From: Anaerococcus obesiensis ph10
GTDB lineage: Bacteria; Bacillota; Clostridia; Tissierellales; Peptoniphilaceae
Direction: 5' to 3'
Assembly (NCBI RefSeq): GCF_000311745.1
Contig: NZ_HE978531.1
Location: 418,787 to 482,786, forward strand
DNA length: 64,000 nucleotides
Below, one piece after another: positions 34,062 to 57,788 of this stretch. Both the position numbers and the translations under genes were made by a program. Each line of letters opens with the position of its first letter. Within the stretch, counting starts at the first letter, position 1. The notes under the pieces were generated by a model, which did not search any database, was not told the DNA's origin, and was given only the letters and a program-made list of their open reading frames with translations.

Positions 34062-34418
34062 GGGGATGTTTTGGTTTCGACGTGCTTGTTAAGATTTAAG
34101 CTGCAAGTCGTTTATCAATTCGTAAAATTGAAAATTAAATATAAATGCAAACAATAATAGCGAAAGACAATTCGCATTAGCTGCCTAATTTAGGCAAGCA
34201 GCAAATAAAAATTAAGCCACAGTAGTTTTTATTTGTTTCATAATTTTATGTGGCAACTAATATACAAAGCTTTGAGTATATTTAGTATCCATGAAGCTAG
34301 TCTAGTAAGTTATTTGTAAGTAGATAAGTGCTAGATGAAAATCAAATACTTACTAAACTTGTAGATGCTTTTATTAAGACTCGTGCGGACACGGGTTCAA
34401 ATCCCGTCATCTCCACCA
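34062..34418 (+). ncRNA. ssrA: Transfer-messenger RNA (tmRNA)
   Basis: Rescues stalled ribosomes. The 5' end GGGGATGTTTTGGTTTCGAC and the 3' end with GGGTTCAAATCCCGTC and CATCTCCACCA form the tRNA-like part: 7-bp acceptor stem with one G-U pair, T-arm, encoded CCA. The tag reading frame starts at the GCA resume codon at 34147 and encodes ANNNSERQFALAA before TAA at 34186-34188. The tail ALAA is the usual ClpXP degron. Length is 357 bases, normal for one-piece tmRNA. Confidence 0.97.
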
Positions 34419-47909: not shown

Positions 47910-48329
47910 TTATAATAATTCTTCTAATATTTCTATTGTTGTTTTTATTGATTTTGTACAGACACTTTCAAATAAACCTTTTTCTTCAGCCAATTTCATA
48001 TTATCATCTTCTAAAATCTCCATAGATAATAACTCTTTGCAATTTTTAGCTTTCATTTTTCCATCAAATAATTCGTTTAATTTTTTGATTTTCTTTAAAA
48101 GTTTCATTCTATCATCAAAGTCTGTTGATCCATATTTCAATCCAAGAATCATATATGCTGCAGATAGTGCTCCACAAGTCTTGCTTTCATATATTCCCAT
48201 CTCAAAAGGAGTTGCAAGTTTCATAGCAGTTTTTTTATCTATTCCATAGTCCTCTGCAAAATAGCAAAAAACGACTTGGCTACAATTATATCCTTTTTCC
48301 ATCATTTCATTTATCTTTTCATAGTCCAT
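47910..48329 (-). CDS. C_GCAxxG_C_C family redox-type protein
   Basis: Protein of 139 residues with GYNCSQVVFCYFAEDYG, ESKTCGALSAAYMILGLKYG and late Cys in KAKNCKELL and ESVCTKS, the pattern that names the C_GCAxxG_C_C family. Members are small, cytosolic and thought to bind a metal or take part in redox chemistry; the reaction is unknown. It is the last gene of the cluster coming from 52834 and follows the CCG Fe-S protein by 10 bases. Confidence 0.87.
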   Translation of the reverse strand: MDYEKINEMMEKGYNCSQVVFCYFAEDYGIDKKTAMKLATPFEMGIYESKTCGALSAAYMILGLKYGSTDFDDRMKLLKKIKKLNELFDGKMKAKNCKELLSMEILEDDNMKLAEEKGLFESVCTKSIKTTIEILEELL

Positions 48330-48339
48330 AATATTTTTC

Positions 48340-49299
48340 CTACTTTCTATAATTTTTAAATTTAAATTTCAAAATATTTTTTCCATAATTTGATGATGCA
48401 CTTTCATTCACACCTAAAATTTCAGATAAAATATTTTTAACATTATTTAGTTTATATTGATTAGTAAAAATTCCAGAGCAAGATGAACAATAGGTATAAA
48501 TATTGTCTTCATTTTTTTCTTTCATATAATTAGATATGTCTTTTACTAAATCTTTTTCGTATGTAATTGCCCCTCCACCTAGACCACAGCAATTTAATTT
48601 CTTGTAAGCATCTTTATAAGATTCTATGTAATACTTTGTGTCCTGAAATATTTCTTTATTATATCTATCACTACAAGGAAAGAATATATTAACTTCTCCT
48701 TTGATTTTTTGACCTATATTATTTTCTTTTAAAAATTTATATATACTGATAACTTCTATATCTATCTTATCTTTCAAAAAATGATAGCAATTTGGACAAC
48801 AACAAATAAGCCTTCCTACATTTTTAATTTTACATAATTTTTTTATCTGACTTATTTTTGCATATCCTCCTTTTTCATAAACTGGTTTTTTACAGCAATC
48901 TACACTATAATCAATTCCTTTTTCTTTGCAAATATCTATTAACTTTTTCGAAGTTTCAGGAAAAAAACCTGGATAATTACATCCCAAATAGAGCAAATCT
49001 TTTGATTTTTTTTTACTATTGTTTGAAAATTTATAATTATTTTTAATAAATTTTGTTTTTAAAACTCCTCTAGGTTTTTTCTTTCTCATTTCTAAAGCAA
49101 GATCTCTTCCCGATAGGTTTTTTGGGCAAACAGACTCACACTTATTACACATAAAGCAAGAATATCTTAAATCTTTTCTATCTACAAATTCTAAAAGATT
49201 TATATTATATTTTTCTAAGAAGCTACAATTATTTTTACAAATATCACATCTAATGCATTCATCTTTTATTTTACTTACAATATTTTTTTGATCTCCCAA
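48340..49299 (-). CDS. Fe-S oxidoreductase-like protein with CCG domains
   Basis: Protein of 319 residues. The N-terminus has two [4Fe-4S] ferredoxin-type motifs (CIRCDICKNNC and CFMCNKCESVCPKN). Two cysteine-rich CCG domains follow, as in HdrB/GlpC/LutA: YLGCNYPGFF with DCCKKPVYEKGG, and FFPCSDRYNKE with LNCCGLGGGA and YCSSCSGIF. It is a likely electron-transfer or heterodisulfide-reductase-like subunit, but no flavin or dehydrogenase partner is adjacent. It starts at a TTG with AGGAG five bases upstream. Confidence 0.87.
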   Translation of the reverse strand: MGDQKNIVSKIKDECIRCDICKNNCSFLEKYNINLLEFVDRKDLRYSCFMCNKCESVCPKNLSGRDLALEMRKKKPRGVLKTKFIKNNYKFSNNSKKKSKDLLYLGCNYPGFFPETSKKLIDICKEKGIDYSVDCCKKPVYEKGGYAKISQIKKLCKIKNVGRLICCCPNCYHFLKDKIDIEVISIYKFLKENNIGQKIKGEVNIFFPCSDRYNKEIFQDTKYYIESYKDAYKKLNCCGLGGGAITYEKDLVKDISNYMKEKNEDNIYTYCSSCSGIFTNQYKLNNVKNILSEILGVNESASSNYGKNILKFKFKNYRK

Positions 49300-49307
49300 A
49301 ACTTCTC

Positions 49308-49991
49308 CTATTCTTTTTGCTCATAAACATTATATATATCATCTATAATTTTATTTACATATCCTTTTTTTCTAGCTTTTCTATAAGTTTTTTGCAATTT
49401 ATGCATCATCCTATTAGTTTTCAAAATTCCATTTTTCATATATCTTCTAGATGATGTTGTTATGGGTGTATTTAGTCGTTTTATTGGAATATCATTTTCT
49501 TTTAACATAATTGAAAACTCATAATCTTCCATTAATGGAATTGGCTTATATCCTCCTAGTTTTTTAAATAATGATTTTTTTATAAATATTCCTTGATCTC
49601 CAAATGCAATTTTTCTTATGTCAACTCTTAAATTAGATCCTATTTCAATCATTTGTAAAAGTAAATTTTTCTTATCAAATTTTAGCTTAAAACATCCAAC
49701 AGCATCTAAATCACTTTCTTCAATTTTTTTTATACTCAAAGGATCTACAATAGAATCTGCATGCAAAAACCAAAGAATATCTCCTTGTGCATATTTTACA
49801 GCTTTATTCATTTGGTTTGACCTGTATTTTGCTTGTCTAATTTTTTTATATTTGATTAAGTCATAAGTCCTATCAGTTGAAAATCCATCAGAAAAAATAA
49901 TTTCAAAATCACCCTCTAATTTACTTAAATTATTTTGAAATTTTTTTATATTTTCTTCTTCATTATATGTAGGGACTATTATTGTTACCAT
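49308..49991 (-). CDS. GT2 glycosyltransferase, rSAM/selenodomain-associated type (TIGR04283-like)
   Basis: Family 2 glycosyltransferase of 227 residues. VTIIVPTYNEEENIKKFQNN is the nucleotide-sugar loop, GDILWFLHADSIVDP carries the metal-binding HAD motif, and FGDQGIFIKKSLFKKLGGYK is the conserved acceptor-side segment. The short length and LHAD pattern match the TIGR04283 group. It starts at the ATG at 49991 (GGAG upstream), overlapping the TVP38 stop. Its natural partner class, TIGR04282, is fused to a kinase-like domain at 51380-52834. Confidence 0.85.
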   Translation of the reverse strand: MVTIIVPTYNEEENIKKFQNNLSKLEGDFEIIFSDGFSTDRTYDLIKYKKIRQAKYRSNQMNKAVKYAQGDILWFLHADSIVDPLSIKKIEESDLDAVGCFKLKFDKKNLLLQMIEIGSNLRVDIRKIAFGDQGIFIKKSLFKKLGGYKPIPLMEDYEFSIMLKENDIPIKRLNTPITTSSRRYMKNGILKTNRMMHKLQKTYRKARKKGYVNKIIDDIYNVYEQKE

Positions 49992-50674
49992 CAATTCTCC
50001 TTGTTTACACTATCTTTTAAAAATAATTTTGAAATTATAGCAGAAATTATTACTAAAATAAATAAAAATAATAAACTAACAAAAAATTCTTTACTTCCAA
50101 TCTTTAATACATTTTCTCCAATATTTATAAACACTATAATTCCTGGTAAAACTCCTATAATTGTAGTCAGGATATAAGGGATAAATTTTATTTCAGTTAT
50201 ACCTGATATATAGTTTACTAGATTATAGCTAAAAATTGGACTTAGCCTTATTATAAATAAAACTAAGGATAAAACTTTTTGATTTTTGCTAAAAAGTGCA
50301 TTTTTTATTTTTTCACTTACATGATTCTCTACAAAAGAATTTACAAAATCTTTAAATAAAAATCTACCAAGAAAATACATTATTGTTGTATTTACAATAA
50401 CAGCCATAAAAGTATAAATTGAACCTTTTGTTAATCCAAATAAACTTCCACCAGCTACAACTATTACCGGAACAGGGAAAAAGAAAATTGGTAAAATTAT
50501 AAAGGTTAAAATATATATTATAGCTGCCCATTTGTTATTTATAAGCACCCATTTTTTTATATGTTGTATACTAATATTTCTAACCAAAAAATAACTTACC
50601 AATCCTATTATGATAATTAGAAAAATCTTTATATATTCTATTTTTTTCTCATTTATATTTAATTTATTTTTCAA
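49991..50674 (-). CDS. TVP38/TMEM64 (DedA-like) membrane protein, copy 1
   Basis: Membrane protein of 227 residues with about six hydrophobic segments. FFPVPVIVVAGGSLFGLTKG and FIIRLSPIFSYNLVNYISGI are the SNARE-associated (VTT) domain signatures. It probably acts in lipid or envelope transport, as proposed for DedA/TVP38 proteins. The start appears to be TTG, overlapping the other TVP38 gene by 11 bases. It is clearly diverged from copy 2. Confidence 0.87.
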   Translation of the reverse strand: MKNKLNINEKKIEYIKIFLIIIIGLVSYFLVRNISIQHIKKWVLINNKWAAIIYILTFIILPIFFFPVPVIVVAGGSLFGLTKGSIYTFMAVIVNTTIMYFLGRFLFKDFVNSFVENHVSEKIKNALFSKNQKVLSLVLFIIRLSPIFSYNLVNYISGITEIKFIPYILTTIIGVLPGIIVFINIGENVLKIGSKEFFVSLLFLFILVIISAIISKLFLKDSVNKEN

Positions 50675-51383
50675 TTTTTTTGCTCTTTTGTTTTTCTTGA
50701 TAAATTTTCTTTCCTACATAGGCTATAAGAGAAAAAGCAAACAGACCTAAAAGTCCATACATCAACGCTTGAGCTCCTCCTGTAAGTTGACCTCCAAAAT
50801 AAGAATAAATTATTGTTGCAGGTAATTGACCTATTCCTGTCGCAATAAAAAATGACCAAAAATTCATTGATGTCAATCCTGCGGCATAACTTACTGGATC
50901 AAAGGGAACAAAAGGAAGTAATCTGCATATTAATATTGCCTGTTTTCCAAATCTATCAAAAAATTCTTCCGCTGATTGCAAAGCTCCATTTGTAGCAATT
51001 TTTTTAACTACATCTCTTCCTAAAATTCTTGCAATAAAAAAACATAACAAAGCTCCTGCCATTGCTGAAGACCAAGAAAGAATAGCTCCTTTCCACCATC
51101 CCCAAATCATAGAATTTGCAAGAGTTATAAAAAATGCTGGTATAGGGGCAATTATAGCTTGTAAAATCATCAATAAAAATGATATTATAACAGCTAAACT
51201 TCCAAAACTTCTTATATAACTTGCGATTTCATTTATGTCTAATTTTCTTAAAACATTAAAAGCATAATTTATTTCACTATTTATTTGTGGTACAAAAAAA
51301 TAAACTAATACGCATAATAAAACTATAGAAATGAGTATAATTCTATTTTTGTTTTCATTACTTATTTTTTTTGCTTTTTTCAT
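50664..51383 (-). CDS. TVP38/TMEM64 (DedA-like) membrane protein, copy 2
   Basis: Membrane protein of 239 residues with five or six transmembrane helices. APIPAFFITLANSMIWGWWK, LCFFIARILGRDVV and ICRLLPFVPFDPVSYAAGLT are canonical VTT-domain motifs, closer to the family consensus than copy 1. A basic C-terminal tail (KKIYQEKQKSKK) faces the cytoplasm. It overlaps the transferase-kinase fusion gene by 4 bases. Confidence 0.88.
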   Translation of the reverse strand: MKKAKKISNENKNRIILISIVLLCVLVYFFVPQINSEINYAFNVLRKLDINEIASYIRSFGSLAVIISFLLMILQAIIAPIPAFFITLANSMIWGWWKGAILSWSSAMAGALLCFFIARILGRDVVKKIATNGALQSAEEFFDRFGKQAILICRLLPFVPFDPVSYAAGLTSMNFWSFFIATGIGQLPATIIYSYFGGQLTGGAQALMYGLLGLFAFSLIAYVGKKIYQEKQKSKKIEK

Positions 51384-52834
51384 TTAAACTCCTCATATAA
51401 TTTACTTAACATTTCTAAATATTCTCGGCTTAAAAATTTGTTTATTTTTTCTATAGTATCTTCATTTTTTATTTTTCTTTCTTTATTATATTCAACTTTT
51501 GCCATAGAACACCAAGTCACTCCTCTTAGAGAATTAAACATTAGATATTTGAAGAATTTATACATATCCACTTTTCTATACTTTTTATATATGTTCAAAA
51601 AATCCAACATATCTTTTTTTTCTAAGATTACATCCGTTTTCCAATTTGTTGTAGTTGGAACTAAAAAATGGGCTAAGTCTTGCTCGCATTCTCCGATTAT
51701 TGGTTTTTCCCAATCTATGACCTTAGAATTTTCTCCAATAATAAAATTTCTATTATTTAACTCAGTATTAATAATACAAGGATTTTCAATTTTTTTATTT
51801 AATCCTGAGCGTTTAGCAATCAACATAAATTTATCTATATATTTTTCTATATCTTTGTTTTTATTTTCCCAGCCTTTATAATAAGAATACATCTGTTCAA
51901 ATTCTTCATACATATTTTTGAAAGGTTTATCAGCAAAAATCAATTTTGAATCTTCAATTTTTGTACTATGAATTTTTGAAAGCATATATGCTGCTATTTC
52001 TAAATCTTTATTATAATCTAAAGCTCTTCCTTCTATAAATTCCATAGTCAAAAATCCAAATGGCAAATATTTACCTTTATCATAAAGTTCGTATGCTTTT
52101 GGTGTGACTGTACTTTTTTCAAGCTCTTTTAGAGCATTATATTCGTATTTTATTTGTTCTTTTCCTAAACCAAGCTGAGATTGTAAATTAATTCTAATAA
52201 CCTTATTTTTATATTTATAGTTAATATTATATTCTCCAGCTCCTAATAACTCTATATCCTTGCTTGAAAACTCTGCCTTTAATAAATCTGTAAAATCATC
52301 TATATCATAAATTTCATCAAGCAGTTTGTAAGTTTTATTCATTTCTTTTATTTTTTTTATTGTCTCTTCCAAAACATTTGACTTAGAATAAACAATATTA
52401 GAAAAAATATCTAAAGATTCTTTCATACCTACAAGCCCATAACCTCCATCATCTGAAGGAGAAATTACAATATCATAATAATCTAATTGTTCAAAAGCTC
52501 TATTTATTTCTTTTTCACTTAAATTAATCAAATCAGAACCTATAAGAATAACTTTATCAGAAAGAATTAGCTGTTTATCTATTGCATTTTTCATTCTAGC
52601 TCCAAGGTCATCTCCTTGTTGATGAATTTTTTCTCCACTTAAAAAATCTATATCGTTTTTTGAACCATCATAATAAATTACATAATCCTTATTGGTTTTT
52701 TTTATTTTCTTATAATTTTCATTTATTAAATCTATTGTTAGTTGTAATCTTTGATTTTCATCAAGATAATTTTTAAGTCTTGATTTGCCAAATCCAAGTC
52801 TTGGAGCTTTTGTAAAAAAAATAATTTTGTCCAT
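51380..52834 (-). CDS. Fusion: DUF2064 nucleotidyltransferase-like domain + APH kinase-like domain
   Basis: Protein of about 484 residues. Residues about 1-190 match the TIGR04282/DUF2064 transferase group (IIFFTKAPRLGFGKSRLKNY, GDDLGARMKNAI, ILIGSDLINLSE, SPSDDGGYGLVGM). Residues about 195-484 are an aminoglycoside phosphotransferase/choline-kinase-like fold (ELLGAGEYNINYKYKNKVIR, LTMEFIEGRALD, VIDWEKPIIGECEQDLAHF). The catalytic HGD motif is altered to NTELNNRN, while the metal-binding Asp in IDWE is kept. The ATG at 52834 has AAAGGA upstream; the longer frame starts at a TTG. First gene of the TVP38-GT2-FeS cluster. Confidence 0.83.
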   Translation of the reverse strand: MDKIIFFTKAPRLGFGKSRLKNYLDENQRLQLTIDLINENYKKIKKTNKDYVIYYDGSKNDIDFLSGEKIHQQGDDLGARMKNAIDKQLILSDKVILIGSDLINLSEKEINRAFEQLDYYDIVISPSDDGGYGLVGMKESLDIFSNIVYSKSNVLEETIKKIKEMNKTYKLLDEIYDIDDFTDLLKAEFSSKDIELLGAGEYNINYKYKNKVIRINLQSQLGLGKEQIKYEYNALKELEKSTVTPKAYELYDKGKYLPFGFLTMEFIEGRALDYNKDLEIAAYMLSKIHSTKIEDSKLIFADKPFKNMYEEFEQMYSYYKGWENKNKDIEKYIDKFMLIAKRSGLNKKIENPCIINTELNNRNFIIGENSKVIDWEKPIIGECEQDLAHFLVPTTTNWKTDVILEKKDMLDFLNIYKKYRKVDMYKFFKYLMFNSLRGVTWCSMAKVEYNKERKIKNEDTIEKINKFLSREYLEMLSKLYEEFK

Positions 52835-52849
52835 AGAAATTCCTTTCAA

Positions 52850-52901
52850 AAAAACTTTAAGAATAAAAGTCTTTATTTAACTTTTATTCTTAAAGTTTTT
52901 A
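52850..52901. terminator. Strong bidirectional-type hairpin after the rhodanese gene
   Basis: AAACTTTAAGAATAAAAGT pairs perfectly with ACTTTTATTCTTAAAGTTT around a 9-base loop, with a T-run on the minus strand. It ends the rhodanese lipoprotein gene and lies 16 bases before the fusion gene start, so expression of the cluster depends on read-through or an internal start. Confidence 0.83.
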
Positions 52902-52908
52902 ATAGGTC

Positions 52909-53658
52909 TTATTTAATTAATTCATATCCATCATATTCTTTTGTTCCATCCCATGCATTATAAACTTCATGGCCTTCTTTTGATAATTTGTCTGCAACTG
53001 TCCAAGATTTATTTCCACTATAACAATATGTTAAAAATGGTTTTTCTTTAGGCAAATCTTTAATATCTTCATCAATTGTATCTACAGATGTATGAATTGC
53101 ATCTTTCATGTGTCCATCATTATAATCTTTTTCATCTCTTGCATCTATAATTGTATAATTTCCAGATGCAGCTTTTTCTTTAAATTCTTCTGGAAGAATT
53201 GTAGCAACTTTTGTCATTGTTGTATATTCAAAATCTTTTACGCCTTGAGCATTCCAAACATTTTTAAATCCTGCTTCAACAAGTTTTTTTGCCATCTCTG
53301 AACTTTTTTTGCCTGTATTACAAATTGTTACTACGTTTTTATCTTTGTAATCACTTATTTCAGAGATTTTTTTGTCAGCATCATCAAGAGGAATATTTAT
53401 AGCATGTTTTACATGACCTTCCTTATATTCTTCCTCACTTCTTACATCAATTACAAGATAATCCTCTTTTTTCTTATTATCTTCCTCAATTTTATCTAGC
53501 TGTTCGCCTTTCATTTCTTGATATTCGCTAATTTGTGTGCTAGCCTCATTTGATTTTACTTCTGTAGAAGTACTATCAACTGCATTATTTTGAGAACAAC
53601 CAGTTAATAAAGCTAAACTAGTAAATATACTTACTAACAATAAATTTGATTTTTTCAT
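52909..53658 (-). CDS. Lipoprotein with two rhodanese domains
   Basis: Surface sulfurtransferase-like protein of 249 residues. The signal peptide ends in lipobox LLTGC (lipidated Cys about 21). Rhodanese domain 1 (about 50-150) has active loop VTICNTGKKSS; domain 2 (about 160-245) has LTYCYSGNKSW; both keep the catalytic Cys. DVRSEEEYKEGHVKHAINIP and DARDEKDYNDGHMKDAIHTS are the two CDC25-like lead-ins. It may carry sulfane sulfur or selenium outside the membrane. A promoter with an internal palindrome lies upstream (53719-53746). Confidence 0.92.
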   Translation of the reverse strand: MKKSNLLLVSIFTSLALLTGCSQNNAVDSTSTEVKSNEASTQISEYQEMKGEQLDKIEEDNKKKEDYLVIDVRSEEEYKEGHVKHAINIPLDDADKKISEISDYKDKNVVTICNTGKKSSEMAKKLVEAGFKNVWNAQGVKDFEYTTMTKVATILPEEFKEKAASGNYTIIDARDEKDYNDGHMKDAIHTSVDTIDEDIKDLPKEKPFLTYCYSGNKSWTVADKLSKEGHEVYNAWDGTKEYDGYELIK

Positions 53659-53718: not shown

Positions 53719-53746
53719 ATTGTATGATATACAAATATATTGTCAA
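53719..53746 (-). promoter_or_regulatory. Promoter of the rhodanese gene with palindromic operator
   Basis: Minus strand: -35 TTGACA (53741-53746), 16-base spacer, -10 TACAAT (53719-53724). The spacer and -10 box contain the perfect inverted repeat TTGTATGATATACAA (53720-53734), placed where a repressor would block polymerase. The regulator is unknown. Confidence 0.62.
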
Positions 53747-54499: not shown

Positions 54500-55307
54500 T
54501 ATATATTTTGTCCCAACTCCCATAGGAAATTTAGACGATATGACATTGAGAGCTATCAATGTTTTAAAAAATGTTGATATAATTGCTTGCGAAGATACAA
54601 GAGAAAGTAAAAAACTTTTAAATTATTTTGAAATAAATAAAAAACTAACTTCATATCATAAATTTAATGAAAAGCAAAAATCACAGGAAATTATTAAAAA
54701 CGCCCAAGAAGGTACAAGTTATGCAATTATAACTGACCAAGGAATGCCAGGAATTTCTGATCCAGGTCATATTCTAATTAAAGAATGCATTAAAAATAAT
54801 ATTTCTTACACAGTTTTGCCAGGTCCATCATCAATTCTTACAGGCTTAATTGCAAGTGGCTTCGATAATGATAGGTTTGCTTTTTATGGTTTTATTCCCA
54901 AAAAAAATTCTGATAAGAAAAAATTATATGAAGAGCTAAAAATTGAAAATAAAACATCAATTTTATTTGATACTCCTCACAACTTAGAAAATACAATCAA
55001 TGATTTTAAAATAGAATTTCCTAATAGAAAATTGGCGATTACCCGCGAATTAAGCAAAAAATTCGAACAATATCAAATTTTTGATATAAAAAATATAAAC
55101 ACAGATGAGCTTACTTTAAAAGGAGAATTTGTTCTTATTTTGGAAAAAAATAATGAAAATGAATCTTTAGATATTTCATCATACAAAGAACAAATTTTAC
55201 AAATGAAAAAAAATGGCGAATCAACTAAGGATATTGTAAAATCCTTGAGAAAATCCACCACTTTTTCAAAAAATGATATTTATGAATTTGTAATCAGCTT
55301 AGATTAA
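54489..55307 (+). CDS. rsmI: 16S rRNA (cytidine-1402-2'-O)-methyltransferase
   Basis: SAM-dependent rRNA methyltransferase of 272 residues. IYFVPTPIGNLDDMTLRAIN, ACEDTRESKKLL, TDQGMPGISDPGHILIKE and VLPGPSSILTGLIASG are the RsmI signatures. AAAGGAGGT lies upstream of the ATG. Its stop overlaps the dhaM stop by 4 bases (convergent genes with no room for a terminator between). Confidence 0.95.
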   Translation: MDYSIYFVPTPIGNLDDMTLRAINVLKNVDIIACEDTRESKKLLNYFEINKKLTSYHKFNEKQKSQEIIKNAQEGTSYAIITDQGMPGISDPGHILIKECIKNNISYTVLPGPSSILTGLIASGFDNDRFAFYGFIPKKNSDKKKLYEELKIENKTSILFDTPHNLENTINDFKIEFPNRKLAITRELSKKFEQYQIFDIKNINTDELTLKGEFVLILEKNNENESLDISSYKEQILQMKKNGESTKDIVKSLRKSTTFSKNDIYEFVISLD

Positions 55308-55696
55308 TTTTCTAATTTATTTACTGGATATTCTTTTAAATATTCAACTATTTTCTCCAAACTTTGTCCTGCTGATGCTTCAACAGCAATTTGAACACTT
55401 GTTTCAACAATTGGTGTTCCAGCAAGATAAACTTTGGATTTTTTTTCATCATCCAACATATCAATTGCCATTTGACAATTCATCATAGAAGAACCCAAAT
55501 CAAAAAATATAACCAAACCATCATTTGTAGCATATTCATTTATGATTTGATTAATTTCATCAAAATTTGAGCCAATATTTCCATCCTTATCTCCGCCGCT
55601 TACCAAAATATTTACATTTGGAGCCATTTGAATGAGAATTTCTCTTAAACCTTCAGCCAATTTTTTGCTGTGGCTTGCTATCAATATATTAATCAT
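55304..55696 (-). CDS. dhaM: PTS-dependent dihydroxyacetone kinase, phosphotransferase subunit DhaM
   Basis: EIIA-Man-like protein of 130 residues that passes phosphate from HPr to the ADP bound in DhaL. NILIASHSKKLAEGL contains the active His (about 9), followed by GDKDGNIGSN and FFDLGSSMMNCQMA. It consists of the EIIA domain only, without fused HPr or EI domains, so it depends on the PTS genes at 14679-16708. It overlaps dhaL by 8 bases. Confidence 0.93.
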   Translation of the reverse strand: MINILIASHSKKLAEGLREILIQMAPNVNILVSGGDKDGNIGSNFDEINQIINEYATNDGLVIFFDLGSSMMNCQMAIDMLDDEKKSKVYLAGTPIVETSVQIAVEASAGQSLEKIVEYLKEYPVNKLEN

Positions 55697-56288
55697 TCAA
55701 ATCTCCCACTATGCTTTTTATACACAAATATGAAGAATATGCGCCTGGATCAATATGTCCAATTGACCTATCCCCAAGATAGGCAGCTCTTCCTTTTCTA
55801 GCCTTAATTTCTTTTGTTTTTTCCATTTTTTCTTGTGCAATTTTAAGAATTTCATCAAAGCTTGAATCATTTTTTAAAGCCTCTGCTACAGGATATAAAA
55901 CATCAACCATAGTTTTATCTCCAACTTGAGCCTTGCCTCTCATTATTACTCCATCAACTCCGTCAGAAAAAGCTTTTGAAAATGAATTTTTATCCAATTC
56001 AATATCTCCATCAAAAACTTGAGCAAATTTCATAAAAAATGTTCCATATAATGGCCCACTAGCTCCTCCAACATTAGAAATCAAAGTCATAGCAATCTTA
56101 TTAAAAAGTGTTTTTAAATCTTTGTAATCATCATTCATGGCATCTTTCACTTTATTAAAACCTTTTGCCATATTAAAACCATGATCACCATCGCCAATTG
56201 CCCTATCAAGATCTGTCAAATATTCTTCATTTTCAATAATTATATTTGATAAAGCTATTACCTTTGACTTAACTTTTTCTATATCCAT
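55689..56288 (-). CDS. dhaL: Dihydroxyacetone kinase subunit DhaL
   Basis: ADP-binding subunit of 199 residues. LTDLDRAIGDGDHGFNMAKG holds the Mg-binding Asp residues, SNVGGASGPLYGTFFMKFAQ and the C-terminal ARKGRAAYLGDRSIGHIDPG are DhaL signatures. It begins one base after dhaK ends. Confidence 0.95.
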   Translation of the reverse strand: MDIEKVKSKVIALSNIIIENEEYLTDLDRAIGDGDHGFNMAKGFNKVKDAMNDDYKDLKTLFNKIAMTLISNVGGASGPLYGTFFMKFAQVFDGDIELDKNSFSKAFSDGVDGVIMRGKAQVGDKTMVDVLYPVAEALKNDSSFDEILKIAQEKMEKTKEIKARKGRAAYLGDRSIGHIDPGAYSSYLCIKSIVGDLND

Positions 56289-56289
56289 A

Positions 56290-57276
56290 TTAACCCCTAA
56301 CTATATCTACATTTTCTTCAAGCAATTTTAAAATTTCTTCATCAACTTTAAAAAGCGTTAATGAAAATCCAGCCATATCCATGCTTGTCATAAAATTACC
56401 CAAGAAAGTTTTTTTGATATTTATATTTCTTTCTTTCAAATAATCACTTGCAAAATTATTTACAATAAACAATTCCATTTCAGTAGTTTGACCCATGCCA
56501 TTAACCATTAAAACAAAATCTCCATCTAGATTTTCATAATCGCCAAGAATATGATCCAAAAGCTCCTTAGAAATTTCGTCAGCTGTTTTAATTTTTTCTT
56601 GTTTTACACCAGGCTCTCCATGAATTCCTACGCCAATTTCCATATCATCTTCAGACAAATCAAAACTTTCTTTTCCAGAAATAGGATTTATGCAAGCCTT
56701 AGTAGCCATGCCCATTGATTTAATATTTTTTACAATTTTTTCAGCCATAGCTTTCATTTCTTCCAAACTTTTTCCACTTCTTGCCATAGCTCCCAAAACC
56801 TTATGAACAAAAATTGTTCCAGCGATTCCTCTTCTACCTGTTGTGTATGTGGAATCTTCAACTGCCACATCATCATTTACGATAATATAATCAACATTAA
56901 TTCCTTCCATCTCTGCCATATCTTTTGCCATTTCAAAATTCATGACATCTCCAGTATAATTTTTAATTACCATAAATACACCTTCGCCAGAATCCGCAAG
57001 TTTTATAGCTTCTAAAACTTGATCTGGAGTTGGAGAAGTAAAAATTTCTCCGCAAATTGCACAATCAAGCATTCCATCTCCGACATATCCAGCATGAGCA
57101 GGCTCATGTCCACTTCCACCACCAGAAATTAAACCAACTTTTCCTTTAATGGGAAGATCTTTTCTGTAAACTATTTTTAACTCTTCATTAATTTTTACCT
57201 TGTCCTCATTAGCCTTTTGAAGACCATTTAGCATTTGACTTATGATTTTATCCTTGTCATTAATTATTTTTTTCAT
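56290..57276 (-). CDS. dhaK: Dihydroxyacetone kinase subunit DhaK
   Basis: Binds dihydroxyacetone covalently and phosphorylates it with DhaL. KVGLISGGGSGHEPAHAGYV is the substrate loop, VMVIKNYTGDVMNFEMA and EIGVGIHGEPGV (substrate-binding His) are typical. I start at the ATG at 57276 with AAGGTGG upstream, giving about 328 residues; the longer frame has no such site. No glycerol dehydrogenase gene adjoins the operon, so the source of dihydroxyacetone lies elsewhere. Confidence 0.94.
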   Translation of the reverse strand: MKKIINDKDKIISQMLNGLQKANEDKVKINEELKIVYRKDLPIKGKVGLISGGGSGHEPAHAGYVGDGMLDCAICGEIFTSPTPDQVLEAIKLADSGEGVFMVIKNYTGDVMNFEMAKDMAEMEGINVDYIIVNDDVAVEDSTYTTGRRGIAGTIFVHKVLGAMARSGKSLEEMKAMAEKIVKNIKSMGMATKACINPISGKESFDLSEDDMEIGVGIHGEPGVKQEKIKTADEISKELLDHILGDYENLDGDFVLMVNGMGQTTEMELFIVNNFASDYLKERNINIKKTFLGNFMTSMDMAGFSLTLFKVDEEILKLLEENVDIVRG

Positions 57277-57788
57277 ACAAACCACCTTTCTTAATAAAAA
57301 TATACCCAAATAAAAAATTTTTATGGTTATTATTTCTCAATACTAGGAAGTGCTTATGGAAAATTTAATTTACTTAATTTAAAAAATCCATTCAAAATCT
57401 AATCTTTAAATCCTAAAAATCAAGTCAATTTAAATTTTTCGATTTATTTAGAAGTCTGATATTAAAATTATGACATTGATTGAAATTTAAATTTTAAATT
57501 TAGTGTGGAAATTCATCTATACTATGAAAAAAATTTTCTTATTTAATTTATTTCAAAATTAATTATCCTGCTTGTAAAATTATAATATTTGATTTTTCAA
57601 ATTGCTATTTTTAAATTTACAAAGTAGAGTTTTTCGGATAAATTTTTTTTATTTAACGTTTTGCTTGTCATTTATTCCCATATATTTTTAATTTGAAAAT
57701 TTTTCTTTCGTTAAAATTTTTTTACTTTGAAAAGTATTTAATTTTCAATATTTTTTTATTTTATTTAAAAAAATTCTTAAAAAAATGC
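57277..57788. other. AT-rich intergenic region, no gene seen
   Basis: About 510 bases between dhaK and the flavodoxin promoter. It is extremely AT-rich with many short poly-A and poly-T runs. I find no convincing ORF, RNA fold or repeat. It presumably contains the dhaK promoter, but no clear consensus is visible. Confidence 0.6.

Follow-up and report, generated by a model that had tools for sequence, protein, structure and literature searches.

A conserved gene set around a nucleotidyltransferase-kinase fusion in Anaerococcus obesiensis: a possible core of sugar activation and transfer

Which pathway might unite a rhodanese lipoprotein, a nucleotidyltransferase fused to a kinase-like domain, two membrane proteins, a glycosyltransferase, an Fe-S protein and a putative redox protein? 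Genes for these proteins lie at 47910-53658 of the window, the whole 64,000-nucleotide stretch of Anaerococcus obesiensis ph10 analysed here (contig NZ_HE978531.1, positions 418,787 to 482,786 of the forward strand), which belongs to a 2.04 Mb genome in 5 contigs that is 92 per cent complete. Open reading frame (ORF) reading of the window bore out the seven head-to-tail genes described in an earlier note on this DNA: they are seven intact collinear ORFs on the minus strand, transcribed in the order RHO, NT-KIN, VTTa, VTTb, GT2, CCG and CGA (Table 1). The note had most of them overlapping, which is true of three of the six junctions (by 4, 11 and 4 bp) but not of the other three, which are gaps of 10, 8 and 74 bp, the last holding a hairpin. 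Its two transferase families, TIGR04282 (the NT half of NT-KIN) and TIGR04283 (GT2), both scored above cut-off, as did TIGR01909 and the Pfam families VTT, APH, rhodanese and C_GCAxxG_C_C.

We propose that this operon forms the core of a route for sugar activation and transfer, a reading that we hold to be evenly balanced between right and wrong. A nucleoside would be hydrolysed to a free 5-modified ribose; KIN, the kinase half of the fusion, would phosphorylate the free ribose-type sugar, most likely at C1; NT would join the sugar phosphate to a nucleotide; and GT2 would pass the sugar on, its most likely acceptor being a glycerol-based lipid. The VTT pair would move the resulting lipid across the membrane, and RHO, CCG and CGA would supply thiol or Fe-S redox chemistry around the route. 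In relatives the nucleoside would be made by ArsS, as an adenosylated methylated arsenical giving 5-dimethylarsinoyl-ribose, or would be brought in by an ABC importer of the YnjB type, which in most cases comes with a dedicated nucleoside hydrolase.

Spread of the gene set

The NT-KIN query matched 50 of 199 genomes sampled from the order, in 24 of 77 genera. TIGR04283 was above cut-off in 49 order genomes, all inside these 50 module genomes, and the fiftieth (G043) reached 167 bits against a cut-off of 182. In a sample of 398 genomes from the phylum, KIN was found in 11, 8 of them with TIGR04283, which was itself present in 28 at E <= 1e-40 (Fisher test, 3e-8).

A further set of loci, referred to as the named loci, comprises the best 80 of 221 confirmed by kinase alignment. 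Most are from Clostridia or Firmicutes, with one from a spirochaete and one from Adlercreutzia; the kinase of one locus from the order sample (L022) shares 81 per cent identity with the Tissierella pigra kinase (L032). A kinase ORF was picked in 77 of the 80 (none in L071, L100 and L109), and 35 more were dropped for having less than 8 kb on a side, leaving 42. Within 8 kb of KIN in these 42 we found NT in 37, GT2 in 38, at least one VTT protein in 37, CCG in 32, CGA in 15 and RHO in 19, the last an undercount, as five proteins left unlabelled turned out to be rhodanese proteins, of which three belong to the 80 loci. The neighbourhood survey proposed in the earlier note thus finds the families together in the order, the phylum and the named loci, and a chance neighbourhood is ruled out. 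No title or abstract opening in the literature search described this cluster.

Most of the core is also under purifying selection within the species. Between the window and the other genome of the same species (G159), the ratio of nonsynonymous to synonymous substitution rates (dN/dS) was 0.03 for CGA, 0.16 for GT2, 0.10 for VTTb, 0.09 for VTTa and 0.17 for NT-KIN, compared with 0.05 for the reference gene glmM.

The nucleotidyltransferase-kinase fusion

The earlier note had pointed to a fused kinase-like domain with an altered catalytic loop, and this alteration proved to be family-wide. The AlphaFold2 model of KIN (299 residues, pLDDT 93.2) has a complete APH fold. Its best structure match was 3dxp (Z 21.7, root mean square deviation (rmsd) 3.3, 281 residues aligned), followed by ytaA, a choline/ethanolamine kinase family protein, homoserine kinase, aminoglycoside kinases, N-acetylhexosamine 1-kinase NahK (19.4) and LicA (18.9). 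Among the 50 matches listed, APH-fold structures gave Z values of 18 to 22 and rmsd of 3.1 to 4.8 at 8 to 19 per cent identity, and many lay within 3 Z units of one another, so that the neighbour lists do not tell the substrate. The presence of NahK among them does provide a precedent for phosphorylation at C1. By sequence, KIN matched APH(9)-Ia weakly (E 5e-6).

In 30 of 30 aligned rows of the KIN family, the loop NTE(L/V)N..NF replaces HxDxxxxN, putting Asn-Thr-Glu in place of His-x-Asp, and the beta3 lysine is replaced by arginine within a RIN/RVN/RIA/RLN motif; residue correspondence was drawn from the APH(9)-Ia alignment, the third strand of the model and inspection. An alignment of 55 rows showed Arg29, Thr172, Glu173, Asn178 and Asp189 to be invariant and Asn171 nearly so. 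We take N178 and D189 to be the metal-binding Asn and Asp of APH enzymes. Since the loop change is conserved across the family, it is a family trait and not decay. KIN therefore has its full fold in common with APH-type kinases such as APH(9)-Ia, choline kinase, homoserine kinase and NahK, whereas His-x-Asp and the beta3 lysine are theirs and Asn-Thr-Glu and arginine its own. No NCBIfam model was above cut-off in the one family member shown in full, and the best NCBIfam matches of 19 members were weak ones to thiamine-kinase and GntI. The family may represent a new catalytic variant of the APH fold.

The same replacements raise the alternative that KIN is a pseudokinase, or performs another chemistry such as AMP transfer, and serves NT as an ATP-binding partner. 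Their occurrence in every aligned row and the invariance of R29, T172 and E173, with N171 nearly so, speak for it. However, the presumed metal ligands N178 and D189 are just as invariant, the glutamate could act as a base, and the fold is complete and modelled at a pLDDT of 93. We judge this alternative to be quite improbable, and retain KIN as the candidate sugar kinase of the proposed route.

LicA/LicC, FKP and similar systems are kinase and nucleotidyltransferase pairs that work in sequence. The window likewise has both partners, here fused, and KIN superposes on LicA; it differs in that NT belongs to the CofC/TIGR04282 group and KIN to an APH-like family of its own, whose catalytic loop is different. 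The model of NT (188 residues, pLDDT 93.1) was closest in the PDB to 3cgx, a putative nucleotide-diphospho-sugar transferase (Z 25.6, rmsd 1.4). Its nearest characterised structure was 7p97, a 3-phosphoglycerate guanylyltransferase (Z 20.7, rmsd 2.3, 180 residues aligned), with 2i5e (19.6) and Rv2983 (17.9) behind it and IspD, TarI and GlmU at 14.5 and below. At the level of fold, NT is therefore nearest the CofC-group enzymes. The NCBIfam label of glycosyltransferase for TIGR04282 appears doubtful, and nucleotidyltransferase fits the model better, though a fold proves no function.

Fusions tie NT directly to its predicted partners. The NT-KIN fusion occurs in 15 genomes, and at 15 of 15 other loci examined the two are adjacent separate ORFs in the same order. 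At the named loci, phmmer labels gave an NT-GT2 fusion in 24 ORFs and a nucleoside hydrolase-NT fusion in 2; profile hidden Markov models (HMMs) confirmed fusions in L088 (TIGR04282 with TIGR04283) and L103 (PF01156 with DUF2064). Kinase, hydrolase and glycosyltransferase are thus each joined directly to NT. Labels of NT-CCG and VTTb-NT-CCG come from phmmer alone and are unconfirmed. The two hydrolase-TIGR04282 fusions are at L103:8328-9968 (Pfam-confirmed) and L108:1845-3377 (phmmer label alone), and this arrangement is a direct hint that NT may act on a nucleoside-derived sugar.

Inputs to the proposed route and the link to arsenic

Two kinds of extra gene recur beside the module in relatives. 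One is the radical SAM gene arsS (TIGR04167, 442 bits in L088) with a peroxidase-like partner (TIGR04169); the other is the YnjB-family ABC importer (NF008633, 434 bits in L032). Of the 42 loci, 19 have YnjB, and 14 of these also encode a nucleoside hydrolase (PF01156). Twenty of the 50 module genomes carry ArsS alone, 26 YnjB alone, two both (G168 and G178) and two neither (Fisher test, 1e-9), the last being the window genome (G000) and G159. ArsS was found in 22 order genomes, 22 of 22 inside the module genomes, and YnjB also in 8 order genomes without the module. In the 42 loci, ArsS (11) and YnjB (19) never occur together, nor do ArsS and the hydrolase (ArsS alone 11, hydrolase alone 16, neither 15).

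KIN is found in 28 of 28 module genomes without ArsS, and ArsS is found in 10 of 10 module genomes without KIN. KIN would be dispensable when ArsS makes the nucleoside, one possible explanation being phosphorolysis by a housekeeping enzyme. In the neighbourhoods of seven of these ten genomes (L116-L122; gene labels for all seven, ORF lists for four), no kinase or nucleoside phosphorylase was recognised, no genome-wide family search having been made. Six unlabelled neighbours from L118, L120 and L122 were, by Pfam, a binding protein, a HAD hydrolase, two rhodanese proteins and two proteins without a match. A single in-frame TGA, as in a selenoprotein, occurs in the ArsS match of G136, G168, G178, G188, G047, G189, G195 and others, and many ArsM-like matches likewise hold one.

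The classical nucleoside hydrolase motif is DxD...DD with shorter spacing than in the cluster hydrolases (L032:12923-13792 and others), where the distance from DxD to DD is longer, as in DCDNTFGIDGCDVDD. Of 37 cluster-type hydrolases, 36 have the DxD...DD pattern; L111 has V for the first D. The longer spacing suggests that the cluster hydrolases form a clade of their own.

The window genome has neither usual input. Its best ArsS-type radical SAM match is 41 bits (cut-off 300), in agreement with the absence of a radical SAM gene remarked on earlier, and no YnjB was found (19.2 bits, cut-off 203). No ArsM was found either (best 37.8 bits, cut-off 263), nor any ArsM-like match at E <= 1e-30 in this genome or G159. 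G159, which is 97 per cent complete, has no ArsS, ArsM or YnjB above cut-off and falls outside the 22 ArsS genomes. The species thus has the module core without either input, which would have been lost or bypassed. The sole nucleoside-hydrolase-family protein found in the window genome (contig 3, 34865-35677; L137) was rejected as the missing input: this PF01156 protein has no DxD...DD motif and resembles the cluster type only weakly.

A core mostly under purifying selection in a genome without either usual input speaks for a sulfur or plain-carbon ribose route. Here, 5-methylthioribose or 5-deoxyribose, released by MTA/SAH nucleosidase from radical-SAM and polyamine by-products, would be exported or stored as a glycoconjugate. 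The rhodanese and CCG partners, as sulfur and redox proteins, suit this idea, as does the fact that 5-methylthioribose kinase is an APH-fold enzyme working on C1. However, it leaves no clear place for the association with ArsS and ArsM, and we consider it unlikely.

That association is marked in the order. ArsM-like proteins (NF008823, E <= 1e-30, with 18 of 47 matches exceeding the curated cut-off) were detected in 32 of 50 module genomes versus 15 of 149 others, or by genus in 18 of 24 versus 5 of 53, and in 20 of the 22 ArsS genomes. The set is widespread and experimentally unstudied. The note's description of an undescribed pathway holds only in part, since NCBIfam already names four of the module's families for arsenosugar biosynthesis: TIGR04282, TIGR04283, TIGR04167 (radical SAM) and TIGR04169 (peroxidase-like), two of them in the window. 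These names presumably rest on gene neighbourhood.

The names, the confinement of ArsS to module genomes and the ArsM association all favour arsenosugar-phospholipid biosynthesis proper, in which the module would make dimethylarsinoyl-ribosyl lipids and the window's species would use arsenicals or arsenonucleosides from its neighbours. As cited in PMC8552651, ArsM and ArsS together carry out the first arsenosugar steps in Synechocystis, and the sources, as far as available to us, describe the first two enzymes of arsenosugar formation alone, ArsM and ArsS. PMC10456119 reports the arsenic-sugar lipids AsSugPL958 and AsSugPL978 in a green alga, so that a lipid acceptor is plausible. Against this stand the absence of ArsS, ArsM or YnjB above cut-off in both genomes of the species, the source of the family names, and the scarcity of ArsM elsewhere: among 25 KIN genomes chosen from the 80 named loci, 5 have an ArsM-like match at E <= 1e-30, and of the 9 with an ArsS locus, 8 have none and one (L039) a partial match at 147 bits. 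This scarcity weakens the arsenic reading in those genomes. We regard arsenosugar-phospholipid synthesis in this strict form as possible but doubtful.

Compared with the ArsM-ArsS pathway, the window has the same two transferase families above cut-off, and in relatives arsS and the gene for the peroxidase-like protein lie in the same run; the window genome differs in lacking ArsM and ArsS above cut-off and adds the TIGR04282-fused kinase, the VTT pair, CCG and the rhodanese lipoprotein. Arsenic is the best-supported element for the module, though not for the window genome, with the ArsM association holding in the order and less elsewhere. As the element of the module as a whole we regard it as possible but less likely than not, and for the window genome as less likely still. 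The earlier idea of a sulfur-, selenium- or metalloid-containing glyco- or phospholipid is partly supported: activated-sugar and membrane-lipid logic fits and relatives tie the set to ArsS and ArsM, but with no ArsS, ArsM or YnjB above cut-off in the window genome, a direct role of arsenic, selenium or sulfur in this organism is conjectural. In eight Clostridia (L053, L064, L077, L086, L088, L090, L091 and L092), ArsS and the peroxidase-like protein accompany the module in genomes that gave no ArsM-like match at E <= 1e-30; their ArsS may have another substrate.

The membrane pair, the RHO-NT junction and the weight of the evidence

The two VTT proteins form an adjacent pair of which one is YdjZ-like and the other YdjX-like: by phmmer, VTTa matched E. 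coli YdjZ at 242 bits, and VTTb matched YdjX at 70 and YdjZ at 50 bits. In E. coli K-12 (NC_000913, 1833401-1840774; L140) the genes run ydjX-ydjY-ydjZ-ynjA-ynjB-ynjC-ynjD, then ynjE. This stretch has a VTT pair and a rhodanese in common with the window, and a YnjB importer and an AhpD-fold protein in common with the window's relatives, whose YnjB matched that of E. coli at 182 bits. It differs in that its annotation, as far as read, shows no KIN counterpart, and the window operon is without YnjB or an AhpD-like protein. The undecaprenyl-phosphate flippase UptA was rejected as the identity of the pair; UptA/DedA flippases share the VTT domain, but VTTa reached 39 bits against a cut-off of 250 and VTTb had no match. 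We take YdjX/YdjZ-type proteins to belong to COG0398. COG0398 DedA proteins are proposed as phospholipid scramblases in the available part of PMC10127716.

These likenesses, together with the E. coli gene layout, speak for a further alternative, an envelope redox or sulfur system of the ydjXYZ-ynjABCDE type in which the VTT pair, rhodanese and Fe-S proteins would be the functional unit and the NT-KIN/GT2 arm secondary. An FNR regulon table lists ydjXYZ-ynjABCD and ynjE, and names ynjE as directly activated (PMC3688515), which also counts in its favour. However, TIGR04283 and the NT query mark the same order genomes, and NT forms fusions with KIN, GT2 and hydrolase, which makes the sugar arm the tightest part of the module in these bacteria. 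This alternative is thus a poor prospect, and we keep to the sugar-activation and transfer route.

Several observations weigh against that route. KIN is missing from 20 of the 28 TIGR04283 genomes of the phylum sample and so is not essential to it, and E. coli lacks a TIGR04282 match and any strong match to TIGR04283, so that part of the gene set works without the sugar arm. The co-occurrence tests take no account of shared ancestry, for which the genus count is a partial guard. KIN, without canonical His-x-Asp and beta3 lysine, may not be a kinase at all, and the structural neighbours of NT include GT-A glycosyltransferases (e.g., mannosylglycerate synthase, Z 13.9). ArsS and the hydrolase were rejected as strict alternatives because the rule fails outside the 42 loci: a short locus (L043) holds both in one run, in two genomes of the window's genus (G136 and G188) one stretch contains ArsS as well as a hydrolase-type gene beside NT-KIN, and in G147 and G178 the hydrolase is at the module and ArsS lies elsewhere. 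The window genome itself is without a detected nucleoside source. Relative to G159, RHO has a dN/dS of 0.70, on few changes, and CCG is split by a frameshift in that genome (L135), where a sequencing error is possible. Finally, the available part of PMC10127716 ties COG0398 DedA proteins to aerobic metabolism, a poor fit to these Clostridia.

The earlier note had allowed that the hairpin between RHO and the remaining genes might fully separate them. This did not hold, as a hairpin and T run were seen by eye at 9 of 11 RHO-NT junctions of relatives, one of the nine being G159 with near-identical sequence. The two junctions without it were a 17-base gap and an ORF overlap that arises from taking the first start codon. 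Kept in this position, the hairpin is part of the arrangement and not a divider of unrelated units. It may be a leaky terminator or attenuator, and a leaky terminator would let RHO be made in excess. Our terminator scan passed over this AT-rich hairpin because it demands three G-C pairs. A sigma-70 scan gave 51 sites versus a mean of 48.5 in shuffles and was uninformative except for the site upstream of RHO. The most probable start codon of NT-KIN is the ATG at 52834, which follows a GAAAGGA site, and not the TTG at 52849.

Both rhodanese domains of RHO have an active-site cysteine loop by eye (CNTGKKS and CYSGNKS), and RHO is below the cut-off of NF045521 'rhoda_near_glyco' (96.8 bits versus 145). 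CCG was assigned from CCG-type cysteine motifs by eye and a partial NF045663 match (residues 17-283, to the C-terminal part of the model, 63.5 bits, cut-off 530); its Fer4_8 and Fer4_9 matches are weak. Elsewhere in the window, genes resembling by eye a dihydroxyacetone kinase set (DhaK, DhaL and DhaM-like) lie at 55304-57309 on the minus strand, and a tmRNA gene with the tag ANNNSERQFALAA at 34062-34418.

Table 1. Features of the seven-gene locus, in window coordinates
Feature	Position	Strand	Evidence
Possible operon promoter upstream of RHO	53719..53746	-	TTGACA-16-TACAAT; 11 of 12 consensus bases, best of 51 sites
RHO, rhodanese lipoprotein	52909..53658	-	Lipobox LLTGC; PF00581 in 2 stretches, 115 bits
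AT-rich hairpin, then T run, between RHO and remaining genes	52850..52901	-	-24.7 kcal/mol, z -6.3
NT-KIN fusion	51380..52834	-	TIGR04282/DUF2064 CofC-like nucleotidyltransferase (N-terminal) and APH-like kinase (C-terminal)
NT half	about 52271-52834	-	TIGR04282 (glyco_like_cofC), 150.6 bits (cut-off 134)
KIN half	51383-52279	-	APH PF01636, 28.3 bits (cut-off 23.2)
VTTa, TVP38/VTT membrane protein, close to E. coli YdjZ	50664..51383	-	PF09335, 102.6 bits (cut-off 33.9)
VTTb, second TVP38/VTT membrane protein, nearer E. coli YdjX	49991..50674	-	PF09335, 75 bits (cut-off 33.9)
GT2, glycosyltransferase	49308..49994	-	TIGR04283 (glyco_like_mftF), 211.1 bits (cut-off 182)
CCG, Fe-S protein	48340..49299	-	N-terminal two-cluster ferredoxin and cysteine-rich CCG-like repeats
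CGA, C_GCAxxG_C_C putative redox protein	47910..48329	-	PF09719, 93.4 bits (cut-off 27); TIGR01909, 58.2 bits (cut-off 47.4)

To our knowledge, the arsenosugar steps after ArsM and ArsS are still open. The fusions and the either/or inputs described here give ordered candidates for these later steps, namely hydrolase, kinase, nucleotidyltransferase, glycosyltransferase and flippase. In a broader proposal, to which we give a rather low likelihood, one conserved back end (KIN, NT, GT2 and a YdjX/YdjZ-type lipid mover) would turn nucleoside-borne 5-modified riboses into surface glycolipids, fed either by ArsS or by an importer and hydrolase that scavenge from other organisms. Clostridia would then make and trade arsenonucleosides, and ydjXYZ-ynjABCDE of E. 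coli would be a relic or branch of the same system. Such a link would offer a handle on ydjXYZ-ynjABCDE, genes without an assigned role.

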